Shown: positions 13,575 through 18,725 of the stretch, one piece after another
Position numbering within the stretch: the first letter of the stretch is position 1
Layout of the letters: each line of letters starts with the position of its first letter
NCBI GenBank assembly: GCA_017468985.1
Contig: JAFUHF010000078.1
Span: 1-42,267, forward strand
Source: Bacteroidaceae bacterium
GTDB lineage: Bacteria > Bacteroidota > Bacteroidia > Bacteroidales > Bacteroidaceae
Length of the DNA: 42,267 nt
Reading direction: 5' to 3'
The notes under the pieces: model-generated
What the model was told of the DNA's origin: nothing
The model's database searches: none
Seen by the model: the letters and a program-made list of their open reading frames with translations, nothing else
Position numbers and translations under genes: made by a program

Positions 13575-14318
13575 ATGAACTCCCCCTCCCCCACCTACCT
13601 CCTTTCGCTCGATTCTACAACCTCCACCAACGACGAGGCGCGCCGCCTCCTCAGGGAGCGTAACGAGAAGTACGTCATCGTGACGGCCCGTCACCAGTCG
13701 GCCGGTCGTGGCCAGCAGGGCCATCGCTGGGAGAGCGAGGAAGGCAAGAATCTGCTGTTCAGCCTCGGCGTGAGGCCCACGTTCCTGGCCCCACGCCGGC
13801 AGTTCCTGCTGCTGCAAGCCATGTCGGTAGCCATCTGCCAGAGCCTCAGCGAGGTGATTTCCGGTTTCACCATCAAATGGCCCAACGACATCTACTTTGC
13901 CGACCTGAAGATTTGCGGCACGCTCATCGAGGTAGGCCTCTCAGGCAGCACGATGGACCACTGCATCATAGGCAGCGGCGTCAACGTCAACCAGACGCTA
14001 TTCTCTGCCTATCCTCCCAACCCCGTTTCCCTCCGGATGCTCACCCACCACTCCCACGACTGCGCCGCCCTGCTCCAGGCCATCACCCATCGCTTCATCA
14101 CCCACTACGAAGCCTTGGAAAAGGGCATCACCGCCCCTTTGCAGCAGGCCTACATGCAGCGGCTCTACCGCCGCGAGGGCATCCATCCCTACCAAGACCG
14201 CGAGGGAACATTCATGGCCCGTATACTCTCCGTTGAACCCGACGGGCACCTGCTCCTGCTCACCACCGACCAGCAACGCCGACGCTATGCTTTCAAGGAA
14301 GTACGATTCGTTCTCTGA
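13575..14318 (+). CDS. birA: Biotin-[acetyl-CoA-carboxylase] ligase, monofunctional
   Basis: This 247-residue protein has the biotin-protein ligase core. It shows DSTTSTNDEARRLL at the start, the biotinyl-AMP binding segment SAGRGQQGHRWES (about 38-50), KWPNDIYFADLKICGTLIE and IIGSGVNVNQ. There is no N-terminal helix-turn-helix, so unlike E. coli BirA it should not repress transcription. It attaches biotin to carboxylase carrier proteins in the cytoplasm. Its last 32 bases overlap the preferred start of the MATE gene. Confidence 0.93.
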   Translation: MNSPSPTYLLSLDSTTSTNDEARRLLRERNEKYVIVTARHQSAGRGQQGHRWESEEGKNLLFSLGVRPTFLAPRRQFLLLQAMSVAICQSLSEVISGFTIKWPNDIYFADLKICGTLIEVGLSGSTMDHCIIGSGVNVNQTLFSAYPPNPVSLRMLTHHSHDCAALLQAITHRFITHYEALEKGITAPLQQAYMQRLYRREGIHPYQDREGTFMARILSVEPDGHLLLLTTDQQRRRYAFKEVRFVL

Positions 14319-15594
14319 GCAAACCATCCTGCACATTGCTCTGCCGGCCATCGTTTCAAACATTACGGTGCCCCTCCTGGGCATCATCGACACGGCCATC
14401 GTGGGCCACCTGGGCTCGCCGACCTACATCGGAGCCATTGCGCTGGGTAGCATGGTGTTCAGCCTCATGTACTGGCTGTTCGGTTTTCTGCGCGCCGGCA
14501 CGAGTGGCTTCACCAGCCAGGCGCTCGGTGCCGAAAACCACGAGGAGGTGACTTACAGCCTCTATCGCTCGCTCATCTTCGCCGTGGGCGTGGGCGTGCT
14601 GCTCCTGCTGTTGGGCCATCCGCTGAGCCGCCTGGCTTTTCGCCTGGCCGACGCCTCGTCCGAGGTGGAAGCCTCGGCCTTGACCTATTTCCACATCCTC
14701 ATCTGGGGTGCACCGACCGTGCTGCCCCTCTATGGGCTTAACGGATGGTTCATCGGTCATGGCGATACGCGCTCCACGATGCGCATCGCCATCGCACAGA
14801 ATCTTCTCAATGTCATTGCCAGCCTGGGGTTCGTACTCGTGGCCAAGATGCAGGTGGCCGGTGTGGCAGCCGGAACCCTCCTGGCCCAGTATGCCGGCCT
14901 GCTGATGGCCATCGTCACCTGGCGCACCCGTTATGCCCACTATCGCCATGCCTTCCATTTCAGCCGTTTGGTGCAGAAGGAAAAGCTCAGGCGCTTTTTC
15001 AGCGTAAACCGCGACATCTTTCTGCGCACGCTCTGCATCCTTTCGGTCACCACCTTTTTCACCATAGCCGGTTCGCGGCAAGATGACCTCACCCTGGCGG
15101 CCAACTCCCTGCTCATGCAGCTGTTCCTGTTTTTCTCCTATTTTGTAGATGGCTTTGCCAATGCCGGCGAATCGCTGGCCGGTCGCCTCACGGGAGCAGG
15201 CCAGCCCACGGAGCTCAGACGGATGCTGTCGGCCCTGTTTCGCATGGGAGCGGCCATAGCCGCCGCGTTCACCCTCTGCTATGCCGTGTTGGGGTCCACC
15301 CTCCTCTCGCTGCTCACCCACCATGGCGACGTGCAGGCCCGAGCCTTACAGTTTCTGCCCTGGACGATGGCCGTACCGCTCTTAGGCTTCGCCGCATTCC
15401 TGTGGGACGGCGTGTTCATAGGCCTTACGGCCACGCGCAAGCTGCTCCTCACCATGCTCACAGCCACCGTGGGCTTCTTTGCCTGCTACTACCTCACCTT
15501 CCCCATGCTGATGAACCACGGTTTGTGGCTCTCCTTCTGCCTCTTTCTGCTGCTACGCAGCGCAGTGGCCACCCTCCTGAGCCGAAGGGGCTGA
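14287..15594 (+). CDS. MATE family efflux transporter (DinF type)
   Basis: This protein of about 435 residues has twelve predicted transmembrane segments in two homologous halves. It begins with the MATE pattern ILHIALPAIVSNITVPLLGIID, then TAIVGHLG and FLRAGTSGFTSQALGAEN, as in the DinF branch. It would export drugs or metabolites using a Na+ or H+ gradient; the substrate is unknown. I prefer the ATG at 14287 because the family start aligns there; the longer frame from 14233 would add 18 residues that merely re-read birA. This gene ends the plus-strand group, and the repeat array follows directly. Confidence 0.88.
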   Translation: MLSRKYDSFSEQTILHIALPAIVSNITVPLLGIIDTAIVGHLGSPTYIGAIALGSMVFSLMYWLFGFLRAGTSGFTSQALGAENHEEVTYSLYRSLIFAVGVGVLLLLLGHPLSRLAFRLADASSEVEASALTYFHILIWGAPTVLPLYGLNGWFIGHGDTRSTMRIAIAQNLLNVIASLGFVLVAKMQVAGVAAGTLLAQYAGLLMAIVTWRTRYAHYRHAFHFSRLVQKEKLRRFFSVNRDIFLRTLCILSVTTFFTIAGSRQDDLTLAANSLLMQLFLFFSYFVDGFANAGESLAGRLTGAGQPTELRRMLSALFRMGAAIAAAFTLCYAVLGSTLLSLLTHHGDVQARALQFLPWTMAVPLLGFAAFLWDGVFIGLTATRKLLLTMLTATVGFFACYYLTFPMLMNHGLWLSFCLFLLLRSAVATLLSRRG

Positions 15595-15629
15595 CTCCAC
15601 AAAGGAGGCAAAGCAATTTATTTGAGTCC

Positions 15630-15803
15630 TGCAACAATTCCCCGGGGTAATGTTGCAATTCTCGTGTGGAATTGCAACAATTTCTCGAGAAATGTTGCAT
15701 CTTCGAATTATTTTGCAACAAAACCATGGTATATTGTTGCATTTTTCAAATAAATTGCAACAAATTTCCTCACAATGTTGCATCTTTCAAATAATTTGCA
15801 ACA
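15630..15803. repeat. Phased array of nine alternating TGCAACA/TGTTGCA boxes (about 42-bp period)
   Basis: Nine perfect 7-mers alternate in orientation. TGCAACA starts at 15630, 15673, 15714, 15756 and 15797; TGTTGCA starts at 15651, 15693, 15735 and 15776. Each step is 20-22 bp, about two helical turns, and the full period is 41-43 bp. The interiors differ, yet several are themselves palindromic: CCCCGGGG in unit 1, TTTCTCGAGAAA in unit 2 and ACCATGGT in unit 3. The segment 15651-15679 is an 11-bp perfect stem with a 7-base loop. The array lies between two convergent genes. It could be a multi-hairpin terminator, a protein-binding array, or a mobile repeat; I do not recognise it. Confidence 0.9.
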
Positions 15804-15852
15804 TTACCCCAGGAAAGTGAACTCGCACACCACCCTCACAGCGCAAATCTCC

Positions 15853-15980
15853 AGGGGAAGTAGAACCGTTCGCCTATGGTACGGAACCCATCCTCAGGGG
15901 AGTGGCACCATTCACTTATGGTGCGGAGCCACACCGATGGGGATTCATGCCATACCACAGGCGTACGGCCATTCTCCCCT
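15853..15980. repeat. GC-rich palindromic repeats in the same 42-bp register
   Basis: Three units follow the TGCAACA array. Landmarks recur every 42-43 bp: GGGGA at 15854, 15897 and 15939, and T(A/G)CGG at 15880, 15922 and 15964. Unit B contains a perfect 7-bp stem, GCACCAT (15905-15911) with ATGGTGC (15918-15924). Unit C, read on the minus strand, resembles unit A (about 22 of 30 positions around CCGT-CGCCT-TGGTA-GG), so it is an inverted copy. A further 7-bp inverted repeat, TGCCGCA (16008-16014) and TGCGGCA (16038-16044), lies closer to the esterase stop. No gene is supported in 15595-16075. Confidence 0.75.
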
Positions 15981-16075
15981 GCAATGCAGCGATATACAAA
16001 AAAGGCATGCCGCACCGCCGTCAACAGGTTTCGGCAATGCGGCACACCCGATGCAGGCCCATGCTGCACTTCGAT

Positions 16076-17338
16076 TCAGCGCAGCACGCGGTCGCAGAAG
16101 TTCATGTATTGCTGCCAGTCGTAAGGCGTCACGTCGTGAACGCCCGTACGGATGTGGTAGCCCACGTCGGTCATGATGGGCTGATTCACCTGGGGCATCG
16201 TCTCCTGTTCTATGCCCTGAAGGCCATAGAGTTTCCATACGGGACTCGCATAGTGGGTGGAGAGGAACTCTCCCTTCGGGTCAGCCCAGCGGTCCTCCTC
16301 AGCACTGACCACATAGAGGTGGCGCGGAGCAACGAGCGCCAGCAGTTCATGCTGGTCGAACGGCATACGGGATTCATTCCAGCTGTATTGCTTATAGGCA
16401 GGGCAGAACCAATGGGGAAAGCTCTGGTTAATTTTGCCCACCGTTTCGCCATACTGACGCTTGGAGAGAGCCGCACCACTGCACCCCGAACAGTTGGAGA
16501 TCACCACGGGGAAGCGCTGGTCCTGCACTCCGGCCCAGAGGGCCGTTTTGCCTAAGCGCGAGTGGCCCAGCACGATGAGTTTCTTGCGGTCCGCCCAAGG
16601 CTGTTTCACCACCCAGTCGGCAATGCGGCTGTAGCCCCAGGCCCATACGCCAATGGCGTTCCAGGAATCGGGCTGCCGGTCCGTGTCATCCTTAAAGAGG
16701 GCGGCCACACTCTCGGGGCGCCCCTTGGCATTGTCTGGAAAGAGGTCCTGATAGCACATGGTAGCTACGGCATAGCCTCGCTTCACGATGTCGGCAATGG
16801 GCCAGCGAGAAGCCTGGTTGTTGCGCACCAGGACGGGGTCCTCGCGGTTGGTGAGGCGGTTGAAATACGGAGAGTAGAGTATCGACTCGTCGGTGGACAT
16901 GCTGTGATTGCCACGGAAGTTGTAGCTCACGAAGGTGGGCACGCGGCCCTGCCTTTGGTTGGGGACATAGACGAGGAGCAACGCCTCCACCTTACGGCCC
17001 TGGCCGTAGAAGGTGAACCTCACCTGCTGCTCCGTGGCCAGTCCGTCCAGCGCGGCCTTATTCTCACGCAGCAGTTCGTGGGTAATTTTGAGCTTTTCCC
17101 GAGGCGTCCGCCCATACTCCTGACTGGCAAAGAGCTCCATGAGTTCGGTGCGGCGCTTCTTCTCCCAGATTTTACGGCTGGTCACTGGTGTGCCATCGCT
17201 GAGCCGCAGCAGATCGGGAAGTGTGAACTTGGGCACCTGCGATTCGTCGTAGAGGGGTGCCGGTTGCTGCGCCTCGGCATGCGTCCAGACACTCAGGCCG
17301 ACAGCCAGCAGAAATACTTTTATTAATTTATGATTCAT
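16076..17338 (-). CDS. CE15-type glucuronoyl esterase homologue (copy 1)
   Basis: This exported 420-residue protein has a signal peptide (LIKVFLLAVGLSVWTHAEAQ) and the alpha/beta-hydrolase pattern of CE15 4-O-methyl-glucuronoyl methylesterases. The nucleophile is Ser260 in GHSRLGK, the oxyanion-region motif is SGCSGAALSKR, and the catalytic His is at about 401 in GVHDVTPYDW. At the place 23 residues after the Ser, where many CE15 enzymes have the acid, there is Cys; the acidic segment EEDRWAD may supply it instead. The enzyme would cleave glucuronate-lignin or related uronate esters. The start at 17338 is chosen because the signal peptide begins there. It follows copy 2 by 37 bases and is about half identical to it by eye. 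Confidence 0.85.
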   Translation of the reverse strand: MNHKLIKVFLLAVGLSVWTHAEAQQPAPLYDESQVPKFTLPDLLRLSDGTPVTSRKIWEKKRRTELMELFASQEYGRTPREKLKITHELLRENKAALDGLATEQQVRFTFYGQGRKVEALLLVYVPNQRQGRVPTFVSYNFRGNHSMSTDESILYSPYFNRLTNREDPVLVRNNQASRWPIADIVKRGYAVATMCYQDLFPDNAKGRPESVAALFKDDTDRQPDSWNAIGVWAWGYSRIADWVVKQPWADRKKLIVLGHSRLGKTALWAGVQDQRFPVVISNCSGCSGAALSKRQYGETVGKINQSFPHWFCPAYKQYSWNESRMPFDQHELLALVAPRHLYVVSAEEDRWADPKGEFLSTHYASPVWKLYGLQGIEQETMPQVNQPIMTDVGYHIRTGVHDVTPYDWQQYMNFCDRVLR

Positions 17339-17375
17339 AATGATGGATTGTACGGAGCAAAAGGAGTAACAGTTC

Positions 17376-18638
17376 TCACCTTCCAAACACCTTGTCGCAG
17401 AAGTCCATGTAGCGCTGCCAGTCGTAGGGGGCCAGGGAGTGCTTGCCCGGGCGCATGTGGTAGCCGATGTCGGTCATCACCTGCTGCCCCACGGGTGGCA
17501 TCTCGGCGGAAGAGGGCCCATTCATGCCATACAGGGCCCACACGGGCGAGGCATAATAGGCAGCCAGATATTCCCCCTTCTGATCGGCCCAGCGGTCTTC
17601 GCTGGCACTGGCCACATAGGCATGGCGCGGCGCAACGAGGGCCACGAGCTCATGCTGATCGAAGGGCAGGTTTTGTTCTTTATCATTGTAATTACGGAAA
17701 TTGCGACAGAACCAGTGGGGAAAACTACCATTGATGATGCCCACCGTTTCGCCAAACTGGCGCTTGGAGAGCGCCGCACCGCCACAACCGGAATTGTTGG
17801 AGATGACCACCTGGAACCGCTCATCCTGTGCTCCGGCCCACAGGGCAGCCTTGCCCTGACGCGAGTGGCCTATCACGATGAGTTGCTTGCGATTGACCCA
17901 CGGCTGGCGGCACACCCAGTCGGCCACGCGACTGCTACCCCAGGCCCATGCGCCAATGGCCTGCCACGCCGTGCCGCTTTCTTCGGCAGGAAACAGCGAA
18001 GCCACCGAACGGGAGGCACCTTCGGGATAATCGGGACAGATATCTTCATAGAGCAGCGTTACCAAGGCGTAACCGCGATCAATGATGTTTTCAACAGGGA
18101 AAGGCTCGATGGCCGTTCTCCAGCCTGGCAGATTGTCGTGTGGATGGAGCGGACGCAGCATGTGGGGCGACGGCAAAAGCGTGGTGTCGCCCGTTACGTA
18201 ACGGTTGCCCTGAAAATTGTAGGCTATGAACACGGGTACGCGCCCCTTACGCTGGTTGGGAACGTAGACGGCCATCAGTGCCTTCACCTCGTTAACGCCC
18301 ACACCGAAGGTCATCATCACTTCGCGCATCGTGGCCTTGCCGCCCAATGCGAGGGGGCGCTCCGTGAGCACCTCGTAGGAGGTCTTCACCTTGCCGCGAG
18401 GCGTCACGCCGTATTCCTGCTCGCTGAGCATCTTCAGCAGTTCGGGCCGGCGGCGTTTCTCCCACTCCTTCGCCGTGGTCACCCTCCTGCCGTCCTCGCA
18501 GCGCAGAACGTCGGGCAACACGTAAGCCGGGATGTTCGATTCATCATAATTCACCTCCCTCTTCGACTGGGCAAAGGCCAAGAGGGGCATACACATAAAA
18601 CAAAATAAGAACGATCTTCGTATCATAACCTTATTCAT
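17376..18638 (-). CDS. CE15-type glucuronoyl esterase homologue (copy 2)
   Basis: This 420-residue paralogue of the next gene has a signal peptide (MIRRSFLFCFMCMPLLAFAQ region). Its nucleophile is Ser259 in GHSRQGK, followed by SGCGGAALSKR and His at about 400 in GKHSLAPYDW. The usual acid position is Asn, with ASEDRWAD as the likely alternative acid segment. Starts at 18638 (MNKV) or 18626 (MIRR) both give good signal peptides. It is the first gene of a two-gene unit that diverges from the OPT-kduI-kduD-MFS operon, whose enzymes would process released uronates, so a shared substrate is likely. Confidence 0.85.
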   Translation of the reverse strand: MNKVMIRRSFLFCFMCMPLLAFAQSKREVNYDESNIPAYVLPDVLRCEDGRRVTTAKEWEKRRRPELLKMLSEQEYGVTPRGKVKTSYEVLTERPLALGGKATMREVMMTFGVGVNEVKALMAVYVPNQRKGRVPVFIAYNFQGNRYVTGDTTLLPSPHMLRPLHPHDNLPGWRTAIEPFPVENIIDRGYALVTLLYEDICPDYPEGASRSVASLFPAEESGTAWQAIGAWAWGSSRVADWVCRQPWVNRKQLIVIGHSRQGKAALWAGAQDERFQVVISNNSGCGGAALSKRQFGETVGIINGSFPHWFCRNFRNYNDKEQNLPFDQHELVALVAPRHAYVASASEDRWADQKGEYLAAYYASPVWALYGMNGPSSAEMPPVGQQVMTDIGYHMRPGKHSLAPYDWQRYMDFCDKVFGR

Positions 18639-18725
18639 TAATGCTACGTTATTTACATCAAACAGAAAGTCTTCCTTCAACACTTACAGCGGCTTATCAA
18701 GCATAATCGCACCATCGAAGTTGGG

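Follow-up and report, generated by a model that had tools for sequence, protein, structure and literature searches.

The window analysed here, a 42,267-nucleotide stretch from a Bacteroidaceae bacterium, carries between two convergent genes an array of nine exact copies of the heptamer TGCAACA or its reverse complement TGTTGCA, the strand of which alternates strictly from one copy to the next. The sequence-only reading from which the analysis started had described the array, its spacing and its position between convergent genes; a motif scan and Pfam assignments bear out all three. The gene on the left encodes a protein of the MATE efflux family on the plus strand and ends at 15594, and the 3′ end of the minus-strand gene on the right, which is glucuronoyl-esterase-like, lies at 16076. 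The features of the locus are the following.

14284..15594, plus strand: flanking gene of the MATE efflux family (Pfam MatE)
15611..15811, no strand: class A element, nine alternating heptamers 20–22 bp apart with short conserved flanks (motif scan, alignment of copies)
15630..15636, plus strand: heptamer 1, TGCAACA (motif scan)
15651..15657, minus strand: heptamer 2 (motif scan)
15673..15679, plus strand: heptamer 3 (motif scan)
15693..15699, minus strand: heptamer 4 (motif scan)
15714..15720, plus strand: heptamer 5 (motif scan)
15735..15741, minus strand: heptamer 6 (motif scan)
15756..15762, plus strand: heptamer 7 (motif scan)
15776..15782, minus strand: heptamer 8 (motif scan)
15797..15803, plus strand: heptamer 9 (motif scan)
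15851..15955, no strand: 42-bp direct repeat without TGCAACA arms, adjoining the array, with units at 15859–15900 and 15901–15942 (lag-42 scan; borders read from the sequence)
16076..17386, minus strand: flanking glucuronoyl-esterase-like gene (Pfam PF22244), 3′ end at 16076

Successive heptamers start 21, 22, 20, 21, 21, 21, 20 and 21 bp apart (mean 20.9 bp), which gives a full period of 41–43 bp. The sole detection of a direct-lag scan of the window is the adjoining 42-bp repeat at 15851–15955, and since its units are devoid of TGCAACA arms, arrays of different classes can evidently be neighbours. To the right of the arrays, the region 16076–18683 holds two adjacent minus-strand glucuronoyl-esterase-like genes, both assigned to Pfam PF22244.

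What distinguishes the array from chance is the order of its heptamers and not their total number. The window contains 17 heptamers, a mildly high count that is reached by one out of 100 shuffles. When alternating inverted k-mers spaced by 18–25 bp were sought irrespective of their sequence, 735 kb of the same genome yielded eight arrays, whereas three dinucleotide shuffles yielded none; in a further run one setting gave nine arrays versus none in shuffled sequence, and a subset of that setting six versus one (one mononucleotide shuffle each). Of the four odd units of the window array, to which the sequence-only reading ascribed palindromic centres, three possess one (CCCCGGGG, TTTCTCGAGAAA and ACCATGGT) and the fourth, AATTTCCTCACAA, does not. 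No intrinsic terminator-like or promoter-like site was found in the region 15560–16120 and Rfam returned no match at the gathering threshold within the array, which leaves terminator, promoter and Rfam readings of the array unsupported.

Constant heptamers and drifting interiors

Copies at other loci had been anticipated, and two diverged ones exist. The pattern TGCAACA-N10-18-TGTTGCA occurs at 11 sites in the genome, all of which lie inside three arrays, that of the window (contig C81) and those on contigs C15 and C6, whereas the reversed-pattern control has a single occurrence. A DNA search recovers the same three class A arrays, with 77 % identity over 200 bases and 78 % over 131 bases. In the three-copy alignment, 62 of the 63 heptamer columns are invariant versus 58 of the 113 interior columns (Fisher p 1.3e-12), and pairwise identity of the interiors is 63, 54 and 74 %; it is thus the heptamers, not the interiors, that are kept constant. 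Their mean spacing in the three copies (20.9, 21.1 and 21.1 bp) corresponds to two turns of B-DNA. About 60 bp of one flank resemble each other between the copies on C15 and C6, and the resemblance is weaker in the window copy, in a comparison that looked for ends of the BOX type in class A only. A CRISPR array was considered and rejected, as the interiors are homologous between loci and not unrelated spacers.

The proposal that palindromy is maintained while the interior sequence changes does not hold across the three copies. Only two of the 24 interiors are palindromic at p<0.05, both of them from the window copy, in a test that was centred and therefore missed the off-centre ACCATGGT. Mean palindromy amounts to 0.47 in odd interiors versus 0.37 in shuffled ones, and to 0.43 versus 0.47 in even interiors. 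Nor does the array keep a fixed orientation relative to genes, since the window copy lies in a convergent gap, the C15 copy between two plus-strand ORFs, and the C6 copy between a minus-strand tRNA-Asn and a minus-strand ORF.

It is in the arms that sequence changes and symmetry persists. A weak match (E 0.5) leads to an array on contig C24 with arms GTTAA(A/G)A/TTTTAAC, designated class B; similar arrays are found on C70, C42, C2 and C7, and related ones with different right arms on C50, C51 and C55. The alignment of the window array with the array on C70 scores 35 over 56 columns, compared with a maximum of 32 in 300 two-base-block shuffles applied to the class A side only. One stretch of class A is homologous to class B, the arms of which differ and yet are again inverted. 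When TGCAACA/TGTTGCA and GTTAAAA/TTTTAAC are paired by hand, both sides differ in four of the seven pairs, a manual count since the computed alignment offsets the two arm classes by one column. Such a concerted change of arms could have come about in three ways: two-fold symmetry may have been selected for, the array may have been amplified anew from a single palindromic unit of new sequence, or template switching may have acted.

Repeat families sharing a period of 40–43 bp

Sequence is the criterion by which intergenic repeats of bacteria are usually recognised. What the arrays of this genome share is a length, 40–43 bp or approximately four helical turns, and the window array is one of many with that period. 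A direct self-similarity scan of 738,950 bases, or 34 % of the genome, detected 43 arrays at lags of 39–45, versus none after mononucleotide shuffling; their best period within 30–59 is 40 bp in seven cases, 42 bp in 26 and 43 bp in ten. Class A does not contribute to this number, its core having been found via the alternating scan and the DNA search. Shorter lags are nearly empty (three arrays at 18–24, one at 25–31, none at 32–38) and so are the longer bands 46–52, 53–59, 60–66, 67–73 and 88–94 (0, 1, 0, 0 and 1 arrays), while the seven arrays at 74–80 and the 33 at 81–87 mostly represent double units. Tandem Repeats Finder gives a similar picture: out of 55 rows with a period of at least 25, 44 fall at 40–43, eight at 80–86 and three at 25–28, and among periods below 25 the commonest is 21 bp (12 rows). 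Nine of the sampled contigs (C15, C2, C24, C42, C70, C7, C8, C55 and C50) had been picked for arrays or for a match inside one; six others (C51, C37, C68, C58, C61 and C57), picked on weak matches outside arrays, contain 16 arrays in 263 kb, a similar density.

The 43 arrays cover 1.4 % of the sampled sequence but 11 of the 32 contig ends examined. They thus explain in large part why this assembly is fragmented, and the arrays as assembled are probably shorter than the real ones. Array-bearing ends were noted on contigs C15, C37, C2, C70, C24, C58, C61, C8 and C55 (e.g., in stretches L163, L171, L173, L186, L188, L193 and L194).

The 44 rows of period 40–43 cluster into six families (11, 7, 7, 5, 5 and 3 rows) and six singletons, two of which are linked more weakly to a family. 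Here and in the dyad, folding, gene-context, conservation and family-score tests, the rows are those of the host genome without the window and stretch L023. The best of the 15 scores between families is 27 and does not exceed the 99.9 % null level (also 27; null maximum 30); the families share their period without detectable similarity to one another. Class A, however, has links outside itself: in 396 comparisons with a null maximum of 30, its nine units score up to 34 against class B and up to 33 against family F5, so that some families may be old relatives. The score of 33 is that of a unit of the C15 copy, A2_3, with a 42-bp F5 unit at position 16295 of stretch L171 (null maximum 30 in 1500), which hints at common descent of the two.

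Beyond their period the arrays have little in common, be it dyad symmetry, RNA folding or gene context. Dyad symmetry reaches p<0.05 in seven of the 44 unit consensuses, and palindromy as a general trait of 42-bp units was therefore rejected. As judged by eye, conservation within the unit is highest in the inverted arms in two of six families, class B and the 40-bp family F4; it is nearly flat in F2, F3 and F5 and patchy in F6. As a whole, the array population points to a geometrical rule or to a common origin and not to one particular sequence.

Distribution in other genomes

A search for the heptamer array in related genomes, as the sequence-only reading had proposed, came back empty: it is lacking in all 18 congeners and in a sample of 398 further genomes from the family. 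Two matches in other genomes, one of 25 bp in G003 and one hairpin in G004, were inspected and judged to be due to chance. A looser pair pattern is present in 19 of 61 relatives including the host, with 11 occurrences in the host and one or two elsewhere. Likewise, queries representing two families, one of 40 bp and one of 42 bp, match 21 and 17 pieces of the host genome and nothing in the 18 congeners. The MATE gene has matches in 16 of the 18 congeners; the alternating scan detected no array around these loci, and none was seen in their downstream tails (two loci have no tail and one has 111 bases). The genus is broad, however, with MATE proteins 46–60 % identical over the fuller matches; absence from congeners thus says little about the age of the array, and their distance leaves neither an empty site nor a target duplication demonstrable.

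Arrays of the same heptamer occur in an apparently different phylum, the host being placed in the Bacteroidales from the look of its sequence; a family scan of eight proteins encoded in the window yielded no lineage-specific family. A scan of a genome collection for three successive heptamers returned 44 stretches, six of them from Mammaliicoccus lentus, and among the stretches with at least five clustered heptamers a long regular alternation at 20–21 bp is confined to L062, L065 and L066, all from M. lentus. In this species TGTTGCA-N12-16-TGCAACA has 26 matches on 13 contigs (reversed-pattern control: 0), forming arrays with the same heptamer and the same alternation as in the host, a period of 41 bp, and interiors unlike those of the host. 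Since the heptamer served as the search key, its occurrence in both organisms may be a coincidence; the geometry common to the two is more telling. Over 341 kb of M. lentus stretches selected for heptamer matches, ten arrays were detected at lags of 39–45 versus 2, 1, 2 and 0 at 27–33, 32–38, 46–52 and 53–59. The repeat rows have periods of 40 (two), 41 (five) and 42 bp (one) and fall into three families and a singleton; one 41-bp family has the inverted arms TTGGATT/AATCCAA. One row is weakly linked to a host family (score 29 versus a null maximum of 29), and dyad symmetry at p<0.05 is seen in one of the eight unit consensuses. Arrays of 40 and 41 bp unlike the TGTTGCA family were also noted (L218 13210–13401, L222 18721–18938, L223 14627–14743 and L228 99–482).

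Sequence from other genomes served as a control. With the same order of comparison bands, 400 kb from six congeners contain five arrays at 39–45 versus 4, 2, 0 and 0, and 400 kb from seven other genomes of the family or order contain seven versus 3, 3, 1 and 0, a slight excess; 280 kb from 38 heptamer-selected stretches of other species contain eight versus 6, 3, 5 and 3. The commonest tandem repeats of the sampled congeners have units of 21–22 bp (19 of 34 rows with a period of at least 20), for instance in G006 and G010 (L202 9518–9788, L201 97–180 and L195 3069–3149). In the genome collection, a contig from a Rhodospirillaceae MAG (L031, 3177–3423) is partly regular, with a 43-bp tandem repeat of 5.9 copies that contains TGTTGCA, and the match in Umea1_bin-0439 (L052) turned out to consist of direct repeats with a recurring TGTTGCA. 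Fourteen stretches from a viral scan include no cluster of at least five heptamers that is regular at 20–22 bp, and plasmid and phage searches gave no match.

Possible origins and known repeat systems

The array is best seen as one of many non-coding minisatellites that lie between genes, probably throughout the genome, and have units of about 42 bp; in class A each unit is made up of two halves, each of about 21 bp. Any function is most likely exerted at the DNA level. The explanation that we tentatively favour, and to which we give somewhat less than an even chance, is recognition of the inverted arms by a protein that contacts a single face of the helix, the length of the repeat being fixed by helical phase. 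The heptamers would be putative half-sites that follow one another at two-turn intervals and switch orientation each time, neighbouring ones forming two-fold-symmetric pairs occupied side by side by a candidate dimeric DNA-binding protein; the role could be nucleoid organisation, looping, or provision of recognition ends for a mobilising enzyme. A conserved motif at whole-turn spacing, as expected of a helically phased protein-binding array, is indeed what class A displays (20.9–21.1 bp, 62 of 63 columns invariant). This explanation meets the constant arms and the two-turn alternation, and also the 40–43 bp period if selection sees phase. However, arm sequences differ between families, so that no single sequence-specific protein can read them all, and with dyad symmetry in only seven of 44 units the symmetric part of the model is limited to class A, class B and possibly F4. 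The nearly flat conservation of F2, F3 and F5 and the absence of class A from the 43 direct-lag arrays likewise count against it.

A neutral or selfish minisatellite is almost as likely, likewise at somewhat less than an even chance. Arrays would arise by tandem duplication and dispersal, template switching would homogenise the arms, and the period would be inherited and not selected; each arm would be corrected to the local majority while single-copy interiors drift. This scenario needs no protein, and homogenisation of inverted-repeat arms by template switching is on record (PMC7202029, PMC8604942). It meets the constant arms and owes the two-turn alternation to descent; the period would have to be inherited or set by duplication. 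The concerted difference between the arms of class A and those of its homologue class B fits it, and so does the restriction of perfect palindromes to some interiors. The confinement of two families to the host among the 18 congeners and the many contig ends within arrays are compatible with rapid turnover. With class A linked to F5, an old common descent of the families becomes possible; since families that score as unrelated may be old relatives, the period may simply be inherited, and this link has lowered our estimate of the binding model and raised that of the minisatellite. If the shared length reflects such descent, repeat length outlasts sequence. On the other hand, a minisatellite alone leaves unexplained why dissimilar families and M. 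lentus have units of 40–43 bp, and majority correction would have to be very efficient to keep the same heptamer at three loci over 26–46 % interior divergence.

A third possibility, rather unlikely in our estimate, is that a process measuring helical turns, such as a wrapping protein or an amplification enzyme with a reach of about four turns, makes or maintains arrays regardless of their sequence, and does so independently in M. lentus. Different families would then converge on 40–43 bp, and the heptamer array would be the one class that still reveals its half-unit of two turns. A protein or enzyme with such a fixed ruler would provide a direct handle on the origin of repeats and on chromosome organisation.

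Protection of mRNA 3′ ends had been among the first candidates, and a multi-hairpin RNA element acting there as a stabiliser, attenuator or processing site is now improbable. Compared with shuffles, the window array folds far better on either strand (z −8.85 and −6.33), but the alternating-arm layout by itself predicts folding. The 44 unit consensuses of the host fold weakly (mean z −0.56, 10 of 44 below −1.5), those of M. lentus better (mean z −1.49, four of eight below −1.5), and the interiors of class A do not keep their pairing. Out of 42 sampled arrays, placed with a crude ORF picker, 12 lie in co-directional, nine in convergent and seven in divergent gaps, 13 at contig edges and one inside a crudely called ORF, versus 86 co-directional, 28 convergent and 39 divergent gaps in a baseline of 153. 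Although the convergent share (9 of 28 classifiable arrays versus 28 of 153 baseline gaps) speaks for an RNA role, as does the transcription reported for BOX elements (PMC3049150), a convergent position is no rule, which weakens a function at 3′ ends, and the arrays in divergent gaps fit a DNA role better. The varied orientation of genes around the three class A copies and the lack of an intrinsic terminator or Rfam match in the window array count against it as well.

Least probable of all is a mobile element of the REPIN/BIME or MITE type with inverted arms as transposase recognition sites, an idea close to the earlier suggestion of a repeat spread by a transposase. The conserved inverted ends, variable interiors and dispersed copies recommend it. 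Against it stand the missing GTAG or CGTC tag, the mere three class A copies, and the lack of a match to the IS200/RAYT-type transposase (Y1_Tnp, PF01797), the one gene family looked for, in an assembly that is 78.65 % complete; the congeners are too distant to reveal a target duplication or empty site.

Among known repeats, BIMEs appear closest in layout, while BOX and BrickBuilt elements seem similar in spirit. According to published reports (PMC2817692, PMC3733652), BIMEs carry regularly spaced REPs in alternating orientation, and BIME/REP arrays resemble the present ones in being intergenic and built from regularly spaced palindromic units, in having stems mostly of 6–9 bp, and in families that vary by species. 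In contrast, REPs bear a GTAG or CGTC tetranucleotide at one end of the palindrome (PMC3733652), and none of GTAG, CTAC, CGTC and GACG occurs in 15611–15811; BIME/REP units usually exceed 100 copies per genome whereas the assembly has three class A arrays, and a unit of 40–43 bp across families sets the present arrays apart. REPINs (PMC3116915) share inverted conserved ends and sometimes form ordered tandem clusters, but their common REP spacings are 71 and 110 bp as opposed to 21 bp in class A, and no RAYT-type transposase was found in the incomplete assembly of the host.

Pneumococcal BOX elements, as described in PMC3049150, are likewise modular and intergenic, have a repeatable middle module and are over-represented between convergent genes. 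Their boxB modules vary and are enclosed by boxA and boxC, which form fixed ends. The present arrays differ in the alternating arms of class A and in the several families with one period. BrickBuilt of Porphyromonas gingivalis, a host group that may be related to the present one, is a dispersed intergenic minisatellite of variable repeat number; it consists (PMC4596501) of a 23-nt direct repeat without spacers and a leader and tail with inverted ends, unlike the half-unit of 21 bp, unit of 40–43 bp, alternating arms and several families found here. A literature search confined to titles and the beginnings of abstracts yielded no description of this layout or of the 40–43 bp length lock, a weak negative. 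As a minor observation, the 43-bp units of F3 (L155, L158, L162 and L163, on contig C15) carry CGTC/GACG next to palindromes; CGTC-tagged repeats have been reported from Bacteroidetes (PMC3733652).
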